Of a DNA stretch of 64,000 bases, positions 32,804-38,453 are shown piece by piece. The notes under the pieces are model-generated. The model was not told the DNA's origin. It was given only the letters and a program-made list of their open reading frames with translations, and searched no databases. The position numbers and the translations under genes were made by a program. Source of the stretch: Caldifarciminota bacterium (GTDB lineage Bacteria; Hydrothermota; Tepidihabitantia; SM23-42); the NCBI GenBank assembly GCA_020349965.1, contig CP070705.1, positions 340,936-404,935 of the forward strand. The letters are read 5' to 3'. How positions within the stretch are numbered: the first letter of the stretch is position 1; each line of letters opens with the position of its first letter.

Positions 32804-34120
32804 ATGAACAGACATGTCACGAGACCCAGGGCATTGCTCGTCAATCCGTGGATCTATGATTTCAAGGCTTTCGACTTCTGGAACAAACCGGTCGGGCTGC
32901 TCATCCTTTCAAGTCTGCTAAGAAAGTTCGGATTTGAATTAGATTTCATTGACTGCATGGACCGCCTGAGTCCGCACTATACCACTAACACAAGAACAGA
33001 TATGTGGGGACGCGGCAAGTATCACTCCGAAGAAGTCGACAGACCGAAGATCCTCAAGGTTGTTCCCCGACGGTACAAGCGGTACGGCATACCACGTGAA
33101 ATATTTGCCCATGCCGTTCGAGATCTCACAATACCTGATTTCATTTTCATTACGTCATCGATGACATATTGGTACCAGGGCGTATTCGAGGCGATAAGAA
33201 TACTGCGCCAAACATTCCCCCACGCGCACATAGTACTCGGCGGCATCTATGCCACGCTCTGCAAAAGACATGCAAGAAAATTTTCAGGAGCCGATACGAT
33301 AATTGCAGGTGCGGTCGAAGAACACATTCCTGAATTGACCGCGGCACTTGGACTGTTGCCAGGACCGCACACTATGCCATATGCATTTGCATCCGATTAT
33401 TCACTCTATGAAAAACTGCGATACGCTGTTACTCTCACGTCGCGCGGTTGTCCTCTTAACTGCACCTACTGTGCAACAAAAGTACTGTGCGGCGGATTTA
33501 CCACTGCTTCGGTTGACACTGTCATCTCACAGATAGATACTATTCAGAGAAAAACCAATAACATCGCTTTCTTCGACGATGCTTTGCTATACAATGAATC
33601 ATTCCCCGAATTGCTGAGAACAATCATCGACAAGAAATACCATCTTGACCTCCATGCGTCGAACGGTTTACATTGCAGGTACATCACGGAAGAAATCGCC
33701 CGGCTCATGTTTGAGGCGAACTTCAAGACCATTTACCTCAGCCTGGAAACGACCAATCCTGTTGTTCAACAGCAGACAGGCGGCAAGGTGAACACCGACG
33801 AATTCAGAAAAGCCGTCAAACTCCTCACCAAGACTGGCTTCACCCCGAATCAAATACATGCGTACATACTCTATGGCATGCCCGGACAGGGGTATGATGA
33901 GATCATCGATTCGATCAAGCTGTGCCGCGACCTCAGGGTAAACCCGCACCTATGCGAATTTTCACCGATCCCGCATACCGTTGAATATCACAAGACCGGT
34001 TTCGACGAAGACACAGACCCTTTACACCATAACAACCTTTTCTATACATGGTATTATCCTGAACCGAAAACCGACCTGTACAAGAGAATCAAGGGCTATC
34101 TTTCTCAGGCGCACCGTTGA
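32804..34120 (+). CDS. B12-binding-domain radical SAM protein
   Basis: The 438-residue protein has an N-terminal cobalamin-binding-like Rossmann domain (LLILSSLLRKFGFELDFIDC, IVLGGIYATL) followed by a radical SAM barrel. The Fe-S motif CxxxCxxC is at Cys216, Cys220 and Cys223 (RGCPLNCTYC). The arrangement is that of the large family of B12-type radical SAM enzymes (methylases and related). The substrate cannot be predicted. The gene starts 14 bp after the glycerate kinase stop and converges on the Cys-repeat operon, so a role with that operon is only a possibility. Confidence 0.82.
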   Translation: MNRHVTRPRALLVNPWIYDFKAFDFWNKPVGLLILSSLLRKFGFELDFIDCMDRLSPHYTTNTRTDMWGRGKYHSEEVDRPKILKVVPRRYKRYGIPREIFAHAVRDLTIPDFIFITSSMTYWYQGVFEAIRILRQTFPHAHIVLGGIYATLCKRHARKFSGADTIIAGAVEEHIPELTAALGLLPGPHTMPYAFASDYSLYEKLRYAVTLTSRGCPLNCTYCATKVLCGGFTTASVDTVISQIDTIQRKTNNIAFFDDALLYNESFPELLRTIIDKKYHLDLHASNGLHCRYITEEIARLMFEANFKTIYLSLETTNPVVQQQTGGKVNTDEFRKAVKLLTKTGFTPNQIHAYILYGMPGQGYDEIIDSIKLCRDLRVNPHLCEFSPIPHTVEYHKTGFDEDTDPLHHNNLFYTWYYPEPKTDLYKRIKGYLSQAHR

Positions 34121-34157: not shown

Positions 34158-35066
34158 TCAGCGTAGGTTCTTGGCTATCCTGATGCCCTGTCTCAGTATA
34201 TACTCCCGCATTTTCTCGTCCGTATGATACCCGGAAGTCTTCGTTGTTGTTTGGCGGAGCACAATAACATCAACTTCCTTTGTCTTCTTCTGTTCCACTG
34301 TCAGCTTGTCCAGGTCCGACTTCAGTCCTTTGAATTTCTTGAATAGACCGAATTCAGGACGGGCGATGATAACAACATAGAAATACGGAAAACTGCGGGA
34401 TTTGACCGTATTGATCGAAATTTGCCCCTGCAATCCAATGAATGCGTCGGGTGCGTCCCTGAATTTGATCAGAACCCTCGCATCGTTGGGAAAAGTTCCC
34501 TGTGCTGCACTGCCCATCTCGAGAAATGGCATCGCTTGCAGGCCAGGATCACCTTTTATCATATCTGAATCGAGTATATTCATCGTTATCTCTGCTTTGA
34601 TGTCGAGGGAGTTGGGCATCCAAGCGCTCTTTCGGCCGCTCAAGATCAATCCCCCAAAAAGAACAAACGCATTCACTATCGTTGCTATGAGAGGAAAGGG
34701 CAGCGAAATCTCCTCGAAAATCGGGAAGAGGAAACCCCCGAAAAAGATGACCGCGATCACCAATGCGATAAAACAACCGATATTCTGTTTACGGAATTTC
34801 TTTATTCTTTCACAGTGCTCCAATACGTGTTTGATCTTCTGCGGGGTCACATCTTGCCACTGCAGATCGGCGGCGGCCACCCTCTTGACCGAAATGCCTC
34901 TTATTAGATTCAGCAATACGCAAAGAATGATGAAAGGCATGCCCGCAAGAATATTGTGCGTGCTGAGCTGAAGCAGGAATCCGGAAACGATCAGCACCGC
35001 CGATACGGCGCTTCGCACCCTGGACCCGATCTTATCGAGTATCAAATAAGCACGAAAATCTTCCAT
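34158..35066 (-). CDS. Four-helix membrane protein of the Cys-repeat operon
   Basis: I do not recognise this 302-residue protein. It has two pairs of hydrophobic segments (about residues 20-37, 41-58, 97-116 and 121-142) and a soluble C-terminal half (150-302) with beta strands, ending in a Lys-rich amphipathic stretch. GAGGGGAAATAG precedes its ATG. The first 35 nt overlap the end of the radical SAM/SPASM gene, so it is translationally linked to it. A role as membrane partner, transporter-like component or sensor is inference. Confidence 0.7.
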   Translation of the reverse strand: MEDFRAYLILDKIGSRVRSAVSAVLIVSGFLLQLSTHNILAGMPFIILCVLLNLIRGISVKRVAAADLQWQDVTPQKIKHVLEHCERIKKFRKQNIGCFIALVIAVIFFGGFLFPIFEEISLPFPLIATIVNAFVLFGGLILSGRKSAWMPNSLDIKAEITMNILDSDMIKGDPGLQAMPFLEMGSAAQGTFPNDARVLIKFRDAPDAFIGLQGQISINTVKSRSFPYFYVVIIARPEFGLFKKFKGLKSDLDKLTVEQKKTKEVDVIVLRQTTTKTSGYHTDEKMREYILRQGIRIAKNLR

Positions 35067-36462
35067 CTATTTCCCCTCTGCCGCAGGCTTGCCAATACAA
35101 TGGACAGGCACCCCGACACACAGTATAATCATCACATTGTAGACATTCGGTCGGTGCGTACTCTCCATGTTTGTAGTAATCTAACCCGTCTGACTGCCAG
35201 ATTTCATCGAAGTTGCTCTTCAAGAGAGAACCGACGGGCTGGCGCCATGAAGAACACGGAATTATATTTCCCGTTGGATCGATGCTCAGTAAGCCGGTTA
35301 TTGCAGCGCATGCCTTGTTGCCCAGACCACTGGCAATAGGATTGAACATACATAACGGCACAGGTGAATACCACAAAAACCTGACATCTTGCTCTTCGGC
35401 AAACCTTTTTATGTCAATAATATGGTCGCCGATCTCTGAATAAGATGTCCACAAATCTTCTCTACTGCCCGCGCGACCACACGGTATGAGTAAGTTCATT
35501 GATAACCGATTGAGCCCAAGACATTTAGCAAGCACGACGATCTCCTTCGCATACGCGATATTATGCCGTGACAGTGTTGTATTGGTATGAACGGGGATGC
35601 CGGCATCTCTCAATGACGCTATCCCCCGGGTCGACGCGTCAAAGGCCCCCTGTTTTCCAGTGATCATGTCGTGAATCTCGCTATTTGGACCTTCGATGCT
35701 TACCTGGGCGCTCGAGAGGCCGGCCTTCTTCAAGGACCGAACAGTGTCATCATAGAGCAGCGTCCCGTTTGTTATGAGATTCGTCCAAAGGCCGATCTGC
35801 GCCGCATATGAGATCAATTTTGCGATATCCTCACGCAATAGTGGTTCGCCACCAGTGAAGCTGACCGACGGAACCTTTGCTTCGTGATAGATCTTGAAGA
35901 GAATCTTCTTGAGATCGTTGGTGCTCAATTCTCTGCCGCAGTGGTCACCTACGTAACAAAACTCACACGCCAGATTACACCGGTAGGTCACTGCAACCTC
36001 TGATAGAATTGGGTATACGTTCAAATTGTCAGAGAACTCATGGTAATCGACCGCGTTGCGCTTTTCATTATCACGCAGGCAACCCTTCATTATCGCCCTC
36101 AGGTCACAGAAGAAATAGTGAATATCCCTGCGCTTATTCTCATCATTACCCACTCTTAAGAGCAGGTCAGTGATCGTATGGCCACTCAACAGATAACTCA
36201 TGATCTCGATTCCAGATTCGTTCAATCCGTATACTTGATTGGGAACGAGGATGAGGAGCCGGTCAATCTTCCTTACGCATACGTAGGGTCTGATCTTGCA
36301 GATAAAATCGTCCACCCACCCCAAATCAAACTCCCTCATTGAATCCATAGCCAGGTCAGTTAATCCGTAATTTTCCGTTTCCCAAATTACCTTATGTACC
36401 TTAAGTAATTTAGGAATCTTCTCTTTTAGAAGATTGCTCAGAATGGGCATTCGAATTTTCAT
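35032..36462 (-). CDS. Radical SAM/SPASM maturase with N-terminal PqqD-like domain
   Basis: The ATG at 36462 is preferred over longer upstream starts: GGAGG lies 7-8 nt upstream and it overlaps the previous stop as TGATG. The extra upstream residues are only a shadow of the Cys-repeat DNA. The 476 residues contain a PqqD/RRE-like domain (about 61-131: VPNQVYGLNESGIEIMSYLL). The radical SAM motif CNLACEFC follows (Cys162, Cys166, Cys169). The glycine loop is SFTGGEPLLR, and a SPASM domain has eight Cys from about residue 395 on. Such enzymes install thioethers, C-C links or epimers in ribosomal peptides. The natural substrate candidate is the Cys-rich tail encoded immediately upstream. Confidence 0.88.
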   Translation of the reverse strand: MKIRMPILSNLLKEKIPKLLKVHKVIWETENYGLTDLAMDSMREFDLGWVDDFICKIRPYVCVRKIDRLLILVPNQVYGLNESGIEIMSYLLSGHTITDLLLRVGNDENKRRDIHYFFCDLRAIMKGCLRDNEKRNAVDYHEFSDNLNVYPILSEVAVTYRCNLACEFCYVGDHCGRELSTNDLKKILFKIYHEAKVPSVSFTGGEPLLREDIAKLISYAAQIGLWTNLITNGTLLYDDTVRSLKKAGLSSAQVSIEGPNSEIHDMITGKQGAFDASTRGIASLRDAGIPVHTNTTLSRHNIAYAKEIVVLAKCLGLNRLSMNLLIPCGRAGSREDLWTSYSEIGDHIIDIKRFAEEQDVRFLWYSPVPLCMFNPIASGLGNKACAAITGLLSIDPTGNIIPCSSWRQPVGSLLKSNFDEIWQSDGLDYYKHGEYAPTECLQCDDYTVCRGACPLYWQACGRGEIDGRFSCLFDTR

Positions 36463-37973
36463 CAGTGCGCTCCTCCACTCACGCAAGCTGAATGACAAGC
36501 CGAGTGACAGGCCGAATGACACGCCGAATGACACGCCGAATGGCAGGCCGAATGGCAGGCGTCATGGCACGCGGTATGAACATAGCACGCACTATGGCAG
36601 GCATCAGACCGCACAAACGCGGCATAATTCCTTATCGGTCCACCATATGCAACAAATGCCCTCTCGGTCTGGGCATAGTATCTACGCCTCCCAAAATCGC
36701 GTCCCATGAGGTAGTCATAGTAGTCTTTCTTGTCGTACTCGGCATCGATCGCTTTGTCAGGCGACGGTGCACCGATCTTTTCGGTATAATAAGATCTTGT
36801 CGCATCCAGATCGCAATCCCACGCCTTCGCTGAAAGATTCTCGACCACCTGAGTAACGAGCGATTTCAATGCTGCCTCGTCCATCGAGCCATCCGGTCTA
36901 ATCGCATCACAGAAAGCGCTCTCGTAGTAGCGGAGGCCAGGTGGTCTCTGCAGTATCTTGATCCTCAAGGGCACTTGCGACGTAATCTCGACTATTCCAT
37001 TCTCAGAGAGATTGGTGGCCAGTATCGTTAAGATCTTGTTGACCGGATAGTCAAGGAGCAGGGCTGCTTCGATCAAATCCAGTTTGGCAACCTTGCCTGA
37101 TTTCCGAAACGTGGCAACTTCTATCTTCGGCGGCACCCAATCATTCCTCAGCCACTGGAGACCTGCAACATCACTATACGCGCCTTTTATGTTGCGTGCT
37201 TTGCGATTAGAGTAGAAAAGATAGGGAATGACGTACAGCACCATATAAAGCAATTCATAAGGAAACGAAAATCCTTTCCCTTCTTCAGGGGTTGTCCGAA
37301 TCTTGCCGAACCGGTCCGTCCTGAAATATCCCGCTGGCACATACTGTTGCATCAACATCTTCTCGCGGGTCGCCAGGTCATTCCGGTGAAGGCGTACCGC
37401 AAAGTAATATTCACCCGCGTACTCCTGGCCAAAGTAGGAAATCAAATACCTTTCGTTCATGAACCTTTCTGTCCGGAATCCATAATCATCCGGATTCACG
37501 ATCTCTCCGGGTACCTGTATCGGATAGTAGACCAGCACGGTGTAGTGTTCAAGTGGCTCGTCCCACTGAGGCGGCGACCAGTGTAGCACCACTAAGTCGC
37601 CATATTCACTGGGCGTCGTTTCCAGATTTCTGCTTCTCGCAAGGTCTCCGCCATAATGCAAAACATACGTGATCTCACCCGGACCAAACGCTTGACCCCT
37701 TGCCAGGAGGATGTCGTATTTATCGCCGAGGTCCTTTATCTCTAATGAATATCGCTCGCCATACGCATCGACTGCATAAGATTCCTCATAGTCAAAATAG
37801 GGTTCGACCGAAATACCCTGGAGGTAGAAACCATGCATAGAACCTGATAGTACTTCATACCTTATTTTGTACACAAAATCTGCGCGACCATCCTGCCACA
37901 ATGATACATCGACTTCCACCCAGCGCAGGTCAGCCGACACTGCCAACAACGCCATCAGAATCAAATCAACCAT
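36462..37973 (-). CDS. Membrane protein with tandem His-Ser-Ala-Cys repeat tail
   Basis: This 503-residue protein has a signal peptide (first 14 residues), a beta-rich exported domain (about 15-230), one clear membrane helix (about 235-254), a cytoplasmic domain (about 275-455) and a 48-residue tail with ten Cys. In the tail six consecutive units read His-Ser-Ala-Cys, preceded by three looser units. The exported domain plus helix plus cytoplasmic domain with a low-complexity tail resembles DUF2207-type membrane proteins. Only two other Cys occur outside the tail. The stop overlaps the start of the radical SAM/SPASM gene. I infer that the tail is a modification substrate or metal-binding element; function is unknown. 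Confidence 0.85.
   Translation of the reverse strand: MVDLILMALLAVSADLRWVEVDVSLWQDGRADFVYKIRYEVLSGSMHGFYLQGISVEPYFDYEESYAVDAYGERYSLEIKDLGDKYDILLARGQAFGPGEITYVLHYGGDLARSRNLETTPSEYGDLVVLHWSPPQWDEPLEHYTVLVYYPIQVPGEIVNPDDYGFRTERFMNERYLISYFGQEYAGEYYFAVRLHRNDLATREKMLMQQYVPAGYFRTDRFGKIRTTPEEGKGFSFPYELLYMVLYVIPYLFYSNRKARNIKGAYSDVAGLQWLRNDWVPPKIEVATFRKSGKVAKLDLIEAALLLDYPVNKILTILATNLSENGIVEITSQVPLRIKILQRPPGLRYYESAFCDAIRPDGSMDEAALKSLVTQVVENLSAKAWDCDLDATRSYYTEKIGAPSPDKAIDAEYDKKDYYDYLMGRDFGRRRYYAQTERAFVAYGGPIRNYAAFVRSDACHSACYVHTACHDACHSACHSACHSACHSACHSACHSACVSGGAH
36477..36605 (-). repeat. 12-bp tandem repeat coding for the Cys/His tail
   Basis: Units of 12 bp (Cys-His-Ser-Ala in frame) run from the codons for Asp-Ala-Cys near 36605 to Val-Ser-Gly near 36477. 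Third positions vary between units (tgc/tgt, gcc/gcg/gct, tcg/tca/agt, cat/cac) while the amino acids stay fixed. That pattern points to selection on the protein rather than to recent slippage alone. Confidence 0.9.
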
Positions 37974-38018: not shown

Positions 38019-38408
38019 CTATTCTCTCGACGCTTCTGCTCTTGCCCTGAGAAGATCGGCCTGGGCAGCAATGAAAGCTGCATACGCCTCTTTGGCATCG
38101 GCCCAGCATGTCTCGTCCGGGAACGATGCCACGATCCCCTGCCAGACGATCTTGTAGACCTTCTCGAGTACCTCTTTTGAAGGTCCCTTCCCCGTCTGCT
38201 CGAACTGGGCCACAACAGGCACCGGCTGAAAGACCGGCGCGGGTCCGGCAACGATATCGGTCTGTGCACCAAGAAAAACGACACCCATATTCTCGATGAC
38301 ATCGATATGTATCTTAATAGCATTCAAGACTGAAGCGATCGAGAAATCTGCTGTCGAAAACTTCATGAGCAGAGTATTACCTTTAATCTCCCCATAGGGT
38401 AAATTCAT
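38019..38408 (-). CDS. Small protein leading the Cys-repeat operon
   Basis: The frame can begin at 38411 or 38408 (tandem ATG after AGGAGGT); the second gives normal spacing and a 129-residue product. I do not recognise it. The N-terminal part is beta/alpha (LPYGEIKGNTLLMKFS), the middle is Pro/Val-rich (VAGPAPVFQPVPVV) and the C-terminal third is a long helix rich in Ala (AKEAYAAFIAAQADLLRARA). No signal peptide. It is 45 bp upstream of the Cys-repeat gene and downstream of a good promoter. Confidence 0.65.
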   Translation of the reverse strand: MNLPYGEIKGNTLLMKFSTADFSIASVLNAIKIHIDVIENMGVVFLGAQTDIVAGPAPVFQPVPVVAQFEQTGKGPSKEVLEKVYKIVWQGIVASFPDETCWADAKEAYAAFIAAQADLLRARAEASRE

Positions 38409-38425
38409 CATACCTCCTTTTTCTG

Positions 38426-38453
38426 ATTGTATACAGATTGGCACTTGTGTCAA
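38426..38453 (-). promoter_or_regulatory. Promoter for the Cys-repeat/radical SAM operon
   Basis: TTGACA (38453-38448), 16 nt, TACAAT (38431-38426), followed by AGGAGG ahead of the 129-residue gene. Four same-strand genes follow with small gaps or overlaps. The same TTGACA-16-TACAAT arrangement precedes the barrel gene at 51368. Confidence 0.65.

Follow-up and report, generated by a model that had tools for sequence, protein, structure and literature searches.

In the CXXX-repeat systems (NCBIfam TIGR04115 for the maturase and TIGR04117, Syntroph_Cxxx, for the target), Cys recurs at every fourth residue of a protein encoded beside a radical S-adenosylmethionine (SAM)/SPASM maturase. The same arrangement is present in the 64,000-nucleotide stretch of contig CP070705.1 analysed here (the window), where a 503-amino acid membrane protein with a C-terminal Cys-repeat tail is followed by a radical SAM/SPASM enzyme. 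The tail aligns to the repeat part of TIGR04117 at 17.1 bits (cut-off 50) and the enzyme scores 47 bits against TIGR04115 (cut-off 350), both below threshold; the TIGR04117 model is 98 positions long, whereas the tail here sits on a much longer protein. Ranthipeptide and sactipeptide synthases such as CteB and SkfB (PMC8326336) combine an N-terminal ribosomally synthesized and post-translationally modified peptide (RiPP) recognition element (RRE), a radical SAM core and auxiliary clusters with a Cys-rich substrate; the window enzyme shares the core and probably the other features. Their substrates are short free precursors, whereas here the substrate would belong to a 503-amino acid membrane protein and thioethers are predicted. 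QhpD and the anaerobic sulfatase maturases are likewise SPASM-type enzymes that act on proteins, although their substrates are soluble or exported enzymes and not a repeat-bearing tail on a membrane protein. In each case the substrate then works in its modified form: a whole enzyme for the anaerobic sulfatase maturases and, for QhpD, a cross-linked subunit of quinohemoprotein amine dehydrogenase (PMC8326336). With these two examples the statement in a preliminary description of this DNA, that known thioether-forming SPASM enzymes act on free precursors, was too strong.

Membrane proteins of family TIGR04222 carry C-terminal Cys-rich tails beside the RiPP-type maturase MNIO, and modification of these tails has been proposed (PMC12452194). 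That maturase is of another class, and the TIGR04222 tails are predicted to be periplasmic (PMC12452194), whereas the tail here is predicted to be cytoplasmic. We found no TIGR04222 match above cut-off in six genomes with the cassette, and no match to MNIO (DUF692) in the five locus proteins scanned. The outer beta-domain of the window protein is similar to the N-terminal domain of DUF2207 (PF09972) proteins, although its score of 20.4 bits does not reach the cut-off of 24.4; the best E value in relatives was 6e-5. Literature searches for a CXXX repeat together with radical SAM, and for DUF2207 together with radical SAM, returned nothing, and searches with tail strings returned nothing related. 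QhpD, the anaerobic sulfatase maturases, the CXXX-repeat targets and TIGR04222 with MNIO are precedents that lower the novelty of the locus, which lies in bringing together a radical SAM/SPASM enzyme, a single-pass protein and a cytoplasmic tail. Taken as a whole, our reading, which we consider likely, is that the tail is modified by the adjoining enzyme and stays on the membrane protein, most likely as thioethers.

Pairing of the tail protein and the enzyme

The window derives from a WOR-3 genome, its near matches being named candidate division WOR-3 metagenome-assembled genomes. Minus-strand positions 35032-37973 hold two genes, encoding the 503-amino acid tail protein and then the 476-amino acid enzyme, with one base common to both: the tail gene stops at TGA 36464-36462, the enzyme starts at ATG 36462-36460, and the base at 36462 serves both. 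The TGATG overlap given in the preliminary description is therefore borne out. The main features are:

36462..37973, minus strand: tail protein, 503 amino acids, with signal peptide, outer beta-sandwich, one membrane helix, inner winged-helix-like domain and Cys-repeat tail (open reading frame, AlphaFold model, homologs in three phyla)
36465..36608, minus strand: 48-residue tail, residues 456-503, with ten Cys and the unit CHSA; predicted substrate (codon comparison)
36460..36464, minus strand: TGATG stop/start overlap, predicted translational coupling (ends of the reading frames; overlaps also in several relatives)
35032..36462, minus strand: radical SAM/SPASM enzyme with PqqD-like N-terminal domain, 476 amino acids (Pfam, predicted fold)

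The distribution of the pair was determined in about 680 genomes (147 of the WOR-3 phylum, 294 Planctomycetota and 241 sampled Verrucomicrobiota) and in loci fetched by homology, with the tail protein, its alignment and a back-translated tail pattern as queries; Verrucomicrobiota were covered by protein search. The CHSA tail is present in 22 of the 147 WOR-3 genomes, 13 of the 294 planctomycetes and four Verrucomicrobiota (two Opitutales loci and two further genomes among the 241), and a reversed control pattern had no match in any genome searched with the tail pattern. Co-occurrence of the two families had been set beforehand as the test by which the proposed pairing could fail; in 39 of 39 tail-bearing genomes, from three phyla, the enzyme lies beside the tail gene or the two are found at contig or scaffold ends that abut. 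In a set of 100 relatives from the WOR-3 phylum, the tail and the enzyme (E<=1e-60) each occur in 28 genomes and coincide in 26, a hypergeometric probability of 2e-19 that ignores shared ancestry. The enzyme-only mismatches (G014, G021) are places where the contig ends, and in the tail-only ones (G067, G080) a more distant enzyme adjoins. Plasmids and viral contigs yielded no relatives.

The operon seemed to be broken in the single-contig assemblies G003 and G007, but this was rejected as a scaffold gap, since the enzyme start follows the tail and then gives way to Ns. In loci L039 and L040, from assemblies that are otherwise single contigs, runs of N directly after the enzyme start mimic a broken operon. 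Weak matches in G348 and G203 were rejected as unrelated.

The 39/39 pairing strongly supports the view, taken from sequence, that the enzyme modifies the repeat tail to give a membrane-anchored product; this much of the earlier proposal gained ground, while the modification itself and its thioether chemistry are still things that we infer.

Conservation of the tail and a sister system

The 503-amino acid protein ends in ...SDACHSACYVHTACHDACHSACHSACHSACHSACHSACHSACVSGGAH, a Cys-His-Ser-Ala repeat encoded by a 12-nucleotide tandem repeat. When the 48 tail codons of the window are compared with those of WOR-3 genomes and one planctomycete, 14-30 codons have changed silently and 0-1 with an amino acid replacement, and the tail is near-invariant though the whole protein is only 36-92% identical; in the full-length set, 71% of columns are invariant in the tail versus 11% in the body. 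In the different phyla the unit takes the form C-H-[SDNA]-A: Cys, His and Ala are kept and the third position varies (S, D, N or A). Complete tails have 8-11 consecutive Cys-Xaa-Xaa-Xaa units and a GG-containing end. The pattern occurs at one place per genome in the 22 WOR-3 genomes that have it and the reversed control in none of the 147, which indicates that the tail is real and more than chance. A low-complexity or chance reading frame might have been suspected from the tandem repeat itself, and one unrelated frame did match by chance elsewhere (L028 in G059, rejected as a chance frame of an unrelated repeat), but such an artefact has a negligible probability: it is refuted by the almost solely silent change across phyla, by the conserved gene order and by the pattern scan of the WOR-3 genomes. 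Neither a stand-alone tail gene nor the tail pattern on any other protein scaffold was found in the 147 WOR-3 or 294 planctomycete genomes.

A sister system was found in seven genomes, six from other families of the WOR-3 phylum and one planctomycete, in which the membrane protein ends in CACACACAGCACACAGGGR or a close variant. The sister membrane proteins are 30-78% identical to one reference member and are like the window protein in the inner domain only; the sister enzyme is about 30-34% identical to that of the window (WOR-3 members) and adjoins the tail gene in six genomes, both genes lying at contig ends in G085. Among WOR-3 members the sister tail shows 9-14 silent and no replacement differences. 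It consists of Cys, Ala and Gly only, plus a final Arg, and has no His. Tail type and enzyme subfamily change together between the two systems, and the CHSA and sister systems were never found in one genome. Neighbours of the sister genes include a zinc-ribbon membrane protein (L062, L063), an SPFH-like protein as judged from its sequence (L062) and a methyltransferase (L062, L098).

These comparisons bear on whether the tail is a substrate at all. The tail could be an unmodified metal-binding or redox element while the enzyme works elsewhere on the protein or on another substrate of the same pathway: its ten Cys and at least nine His, packed into some 45 residues, would suffice to bind soft metals, and both residues are invariant in CHSA units. 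We regard this as improbable, since in all three phyla the tail is tied to an enzyme of the peptide-maturase type, the enzyme subfamily switches with tail type and the sister tail lacks His. The PqqD-like domain marks peptide-binding maturases, and together with a radical SAM core and a SPASM region it makes up the parts of a peptide maturase (PMC8326336); SuiB and SkfB are the folds that the enzyme matches best over nearly its full length. Given that the pairing is obligate and the tail frozen, the simplest interpretation is that the enzyme acts on the tail, and we consider such a modification very likely.

The enzyme and the likely chemistry

Three regions of the enzyme are relevant to its reaction:

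36085..36327, minus strand: predicted PqqD-like (RRE) domain, residues 46-126 (predicted fold; Pfam in sister enzymes)
35956..35979, minus strand: CxxxCxxC cluster motif, C162/C166/C169, invariant
35104..35352, minus strand: auxiliary-cluster region with C371, C385, C403, C440, C443, C449 and C453, invariant in 24 CHSA-type enzymes

The preliminary description had ascribed all the parts of a RiPP maturase to this enzyme. Its CxxxCxxC motif is confirmed as C162xxxC166xxC169, with Pfam Radical_SAM (PF04055) at 95.9 bits (cut-off 29.5). The PqqD-like N-terminal domain is suggested by its predicted structure, in which residues 48-126 form a winged-helix layout of three strands then three helices, and by Pfam PqqD calls above cut-off in two sister enzymes (E 2e-5 and 3.7e-5); Pfam makes no such call in the window enzyme, and in its close relatives the match is weak (three of six). 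The Cys-rich SPASM domain has a Pfam match (PF13186, 29.6 bits, above cut-off) and seven conserved cysteines, but these fall short of the canonical set: against the pattern C-X9-15-G-X4-C ... C-X2-C-X5-C-X3-C ... C, the first six Cys are invariant, the last is not conserved, and C371, which lies upstream, is extra. In CteB and SkfB an auxiliary-cluster ligand is missing (PMC8326336); an assignment of chemistry from a lost ligand of this kind was rejected, as the sister enzymes have a C-terminal Cys and the window-type enzymes no conserved one.

Since Cys is the constant residue of the tail, a thioether between Cys sulfur and a neighbouring carbon appears the most likely product, a plausible assignment that we would stop just short of calling probable. 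The nearest sequence models of the enzyme are PqqE, AhbD/NirJ and GeoRSP, which are not thioether synthases, and SuiB, its best near-full-length fold match, is a C-C cyclase, so that other radical chemistry is possible: the tail might undergo Calpha epimerisation, C-C cross-linking or some different radical reaction at Ala, His or Cys. If chemistry is shared with the sister system, it would need Cys with Ala, Gly or the backbone, as the two tails have just Cys, Ala and Gly in common, and His and Ser would not be required acceptors. The invariance of Cys in every tail variant, set beside the variable third unit position, fits S-C chemistry best, and we judge a reaction other than thioether formation unlikely, though deserving of serious consideration.

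Homology in the enzyme starts from about residue 46, and the ~45 residues before it form an unconserved spacer. The DNA that encodes this spacer (36327-36462), between the tail stop and the conserved enzyme domain, is A/T-rich and of low complexity with CCTAAA/CAAATTCCAAA-like repeats; such a spacer, variable in length and frame, is also seen in L038, L041, L042, L045 and L047. The enzyme gene of the window strain is 68-77% identical in DNA to that of its closest relative, G002, against 83-97% for neighbouring genes and an unchanged tail, which looks like replacement by a divergent allele; that the tail stayed constant beside so diverged an enzyme gene counts in favour of our main reading.

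The membrane scaffold and the fate of the tail

An AlphaFold model of the tail protein (8-row alignment, mean predicted local distance difference test (pLDDT) score 64) and comparison with relatives delimit the scaffold on which the tail is borne:

37335..37937, minus strand: outer domain, residues 13-213, a beta-sandwich (pLDDT mostly 75-90; Foldseek)
37188..37268, minus strand: membrane helix, around residues 236-262 (modelled as helical at 240-262)
36774..37148, minus strand: predicted cytoplasmic winged-helix-like domain, residues 276-400, common to the sister system (300-400 in the model; sister comparison)
36795..36827, minus strand: conserved motif KAWDCDLDATR, residues 383-393, directly before the linker; candidate enzyme recognition site

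The outer domain resembles the N-terminal domain of M1 aminopeptidases (ERAP1/aminopeptidase N in Foldseek, E about 1e-7). The membrane helix is weakly hydrophobic in the window protein and clear in homologs, and because basic residues come after it, the inner domain and tail are predicted to be cytoplasmic, on the enzyme's side. Within KAWDCDLDATR, W385, D386, D388 and T392 are invariant over 24 genomes. The PqqD-like domain would probably bind part of this cytoplasmic region, for which KAWDCDLDATR is a candidate site, and the radical domain would then act along the repeat on the cytoplasmic side, with the joining of Cys sulfur to a neighbouring carbon as the likeliest reaction. The tail would remain attached and serve the membrane protein, perhaps by forming a rigid or metal-binding structure in the cytoplasm that is coupled to the outer domain. 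Both the recognition role of the motif and the biological role of the tail are weak suggestions.

Two further genes accompany the pair:

34158..35066, minus strand: small membrane protein, 302 amino acids, third gene of the operon (adjoins in WOR-3, Planctomycetota and Verrucomicrobiota in every case where the contig extends further)
38019..38453, minus strand: 144-amino acid protein encoded upstream of the tail gene (present in one planctomycete and in nearly every WOR-3 cassette that has sufficient flank)

The order tail protein, enzyme, small membrane protein is kept in all three phyla, and pairwise divergence is correlated among the tail-protein body, the enzyme and the third gene (Spearman 0.80-0.84), as expected of a co-inherited operon. 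Convergent with the operon is a B12-binding radical SAM gene (32804-34120) whose nearest relatives, far below cut-off, are PhpK-type P-methyltransferases; it flanks the operon only within the genus.

A precursor gene placed before, and coupled to, its maturase is also what RiPP clusters show, and the protein might accordingly be an outsized precursor whose tail, once modified, is cleaved and set free as a peptide. This is quite improbable, as the conserved operon holds no recognisable peptidase or exporter (its third gene has no assigned function), the tail is predicted to be cytoplasmic, and its near-identity over distant groups is unlike diversifying peptide products. The modified tail is probably retained on the protein.

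Several points weigh against a tail that is modified and kept. In every member we infer the modification, and co-occurrence alone could reflect another substrate of the enzyme; no leader peptide is identifiable in the tail protein, and tail and linker have low confidence in its model. The canonical auxiliary ligand set is incomplete and differs between the CHSA and sister systems, so the type of reaction cannot be read from the enzyme's cysteines.

The two systems together suggest, tentatively and with slightly less than even confidence, a class of membrane proteins in which a dedicated radical SAM enzyme converts the cytoplasmic Cys tail, of two types on related scaffolds, to a lasting cross-linked element, RiPP-type chemistry finishing a resident membrane protein rather than making a secreted peptide. 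For experiments the pairing offers a clean handle: a single enzyme, a single near-invariant tail, two kinds of tail each with its matching enzyme, and a clearly predicted shift in mass. If this is true, radical SAM peptide chemistry would reach from secreted and cofactor peptides to a resident membrane protein, as has been proposed for MNIO enzymes.

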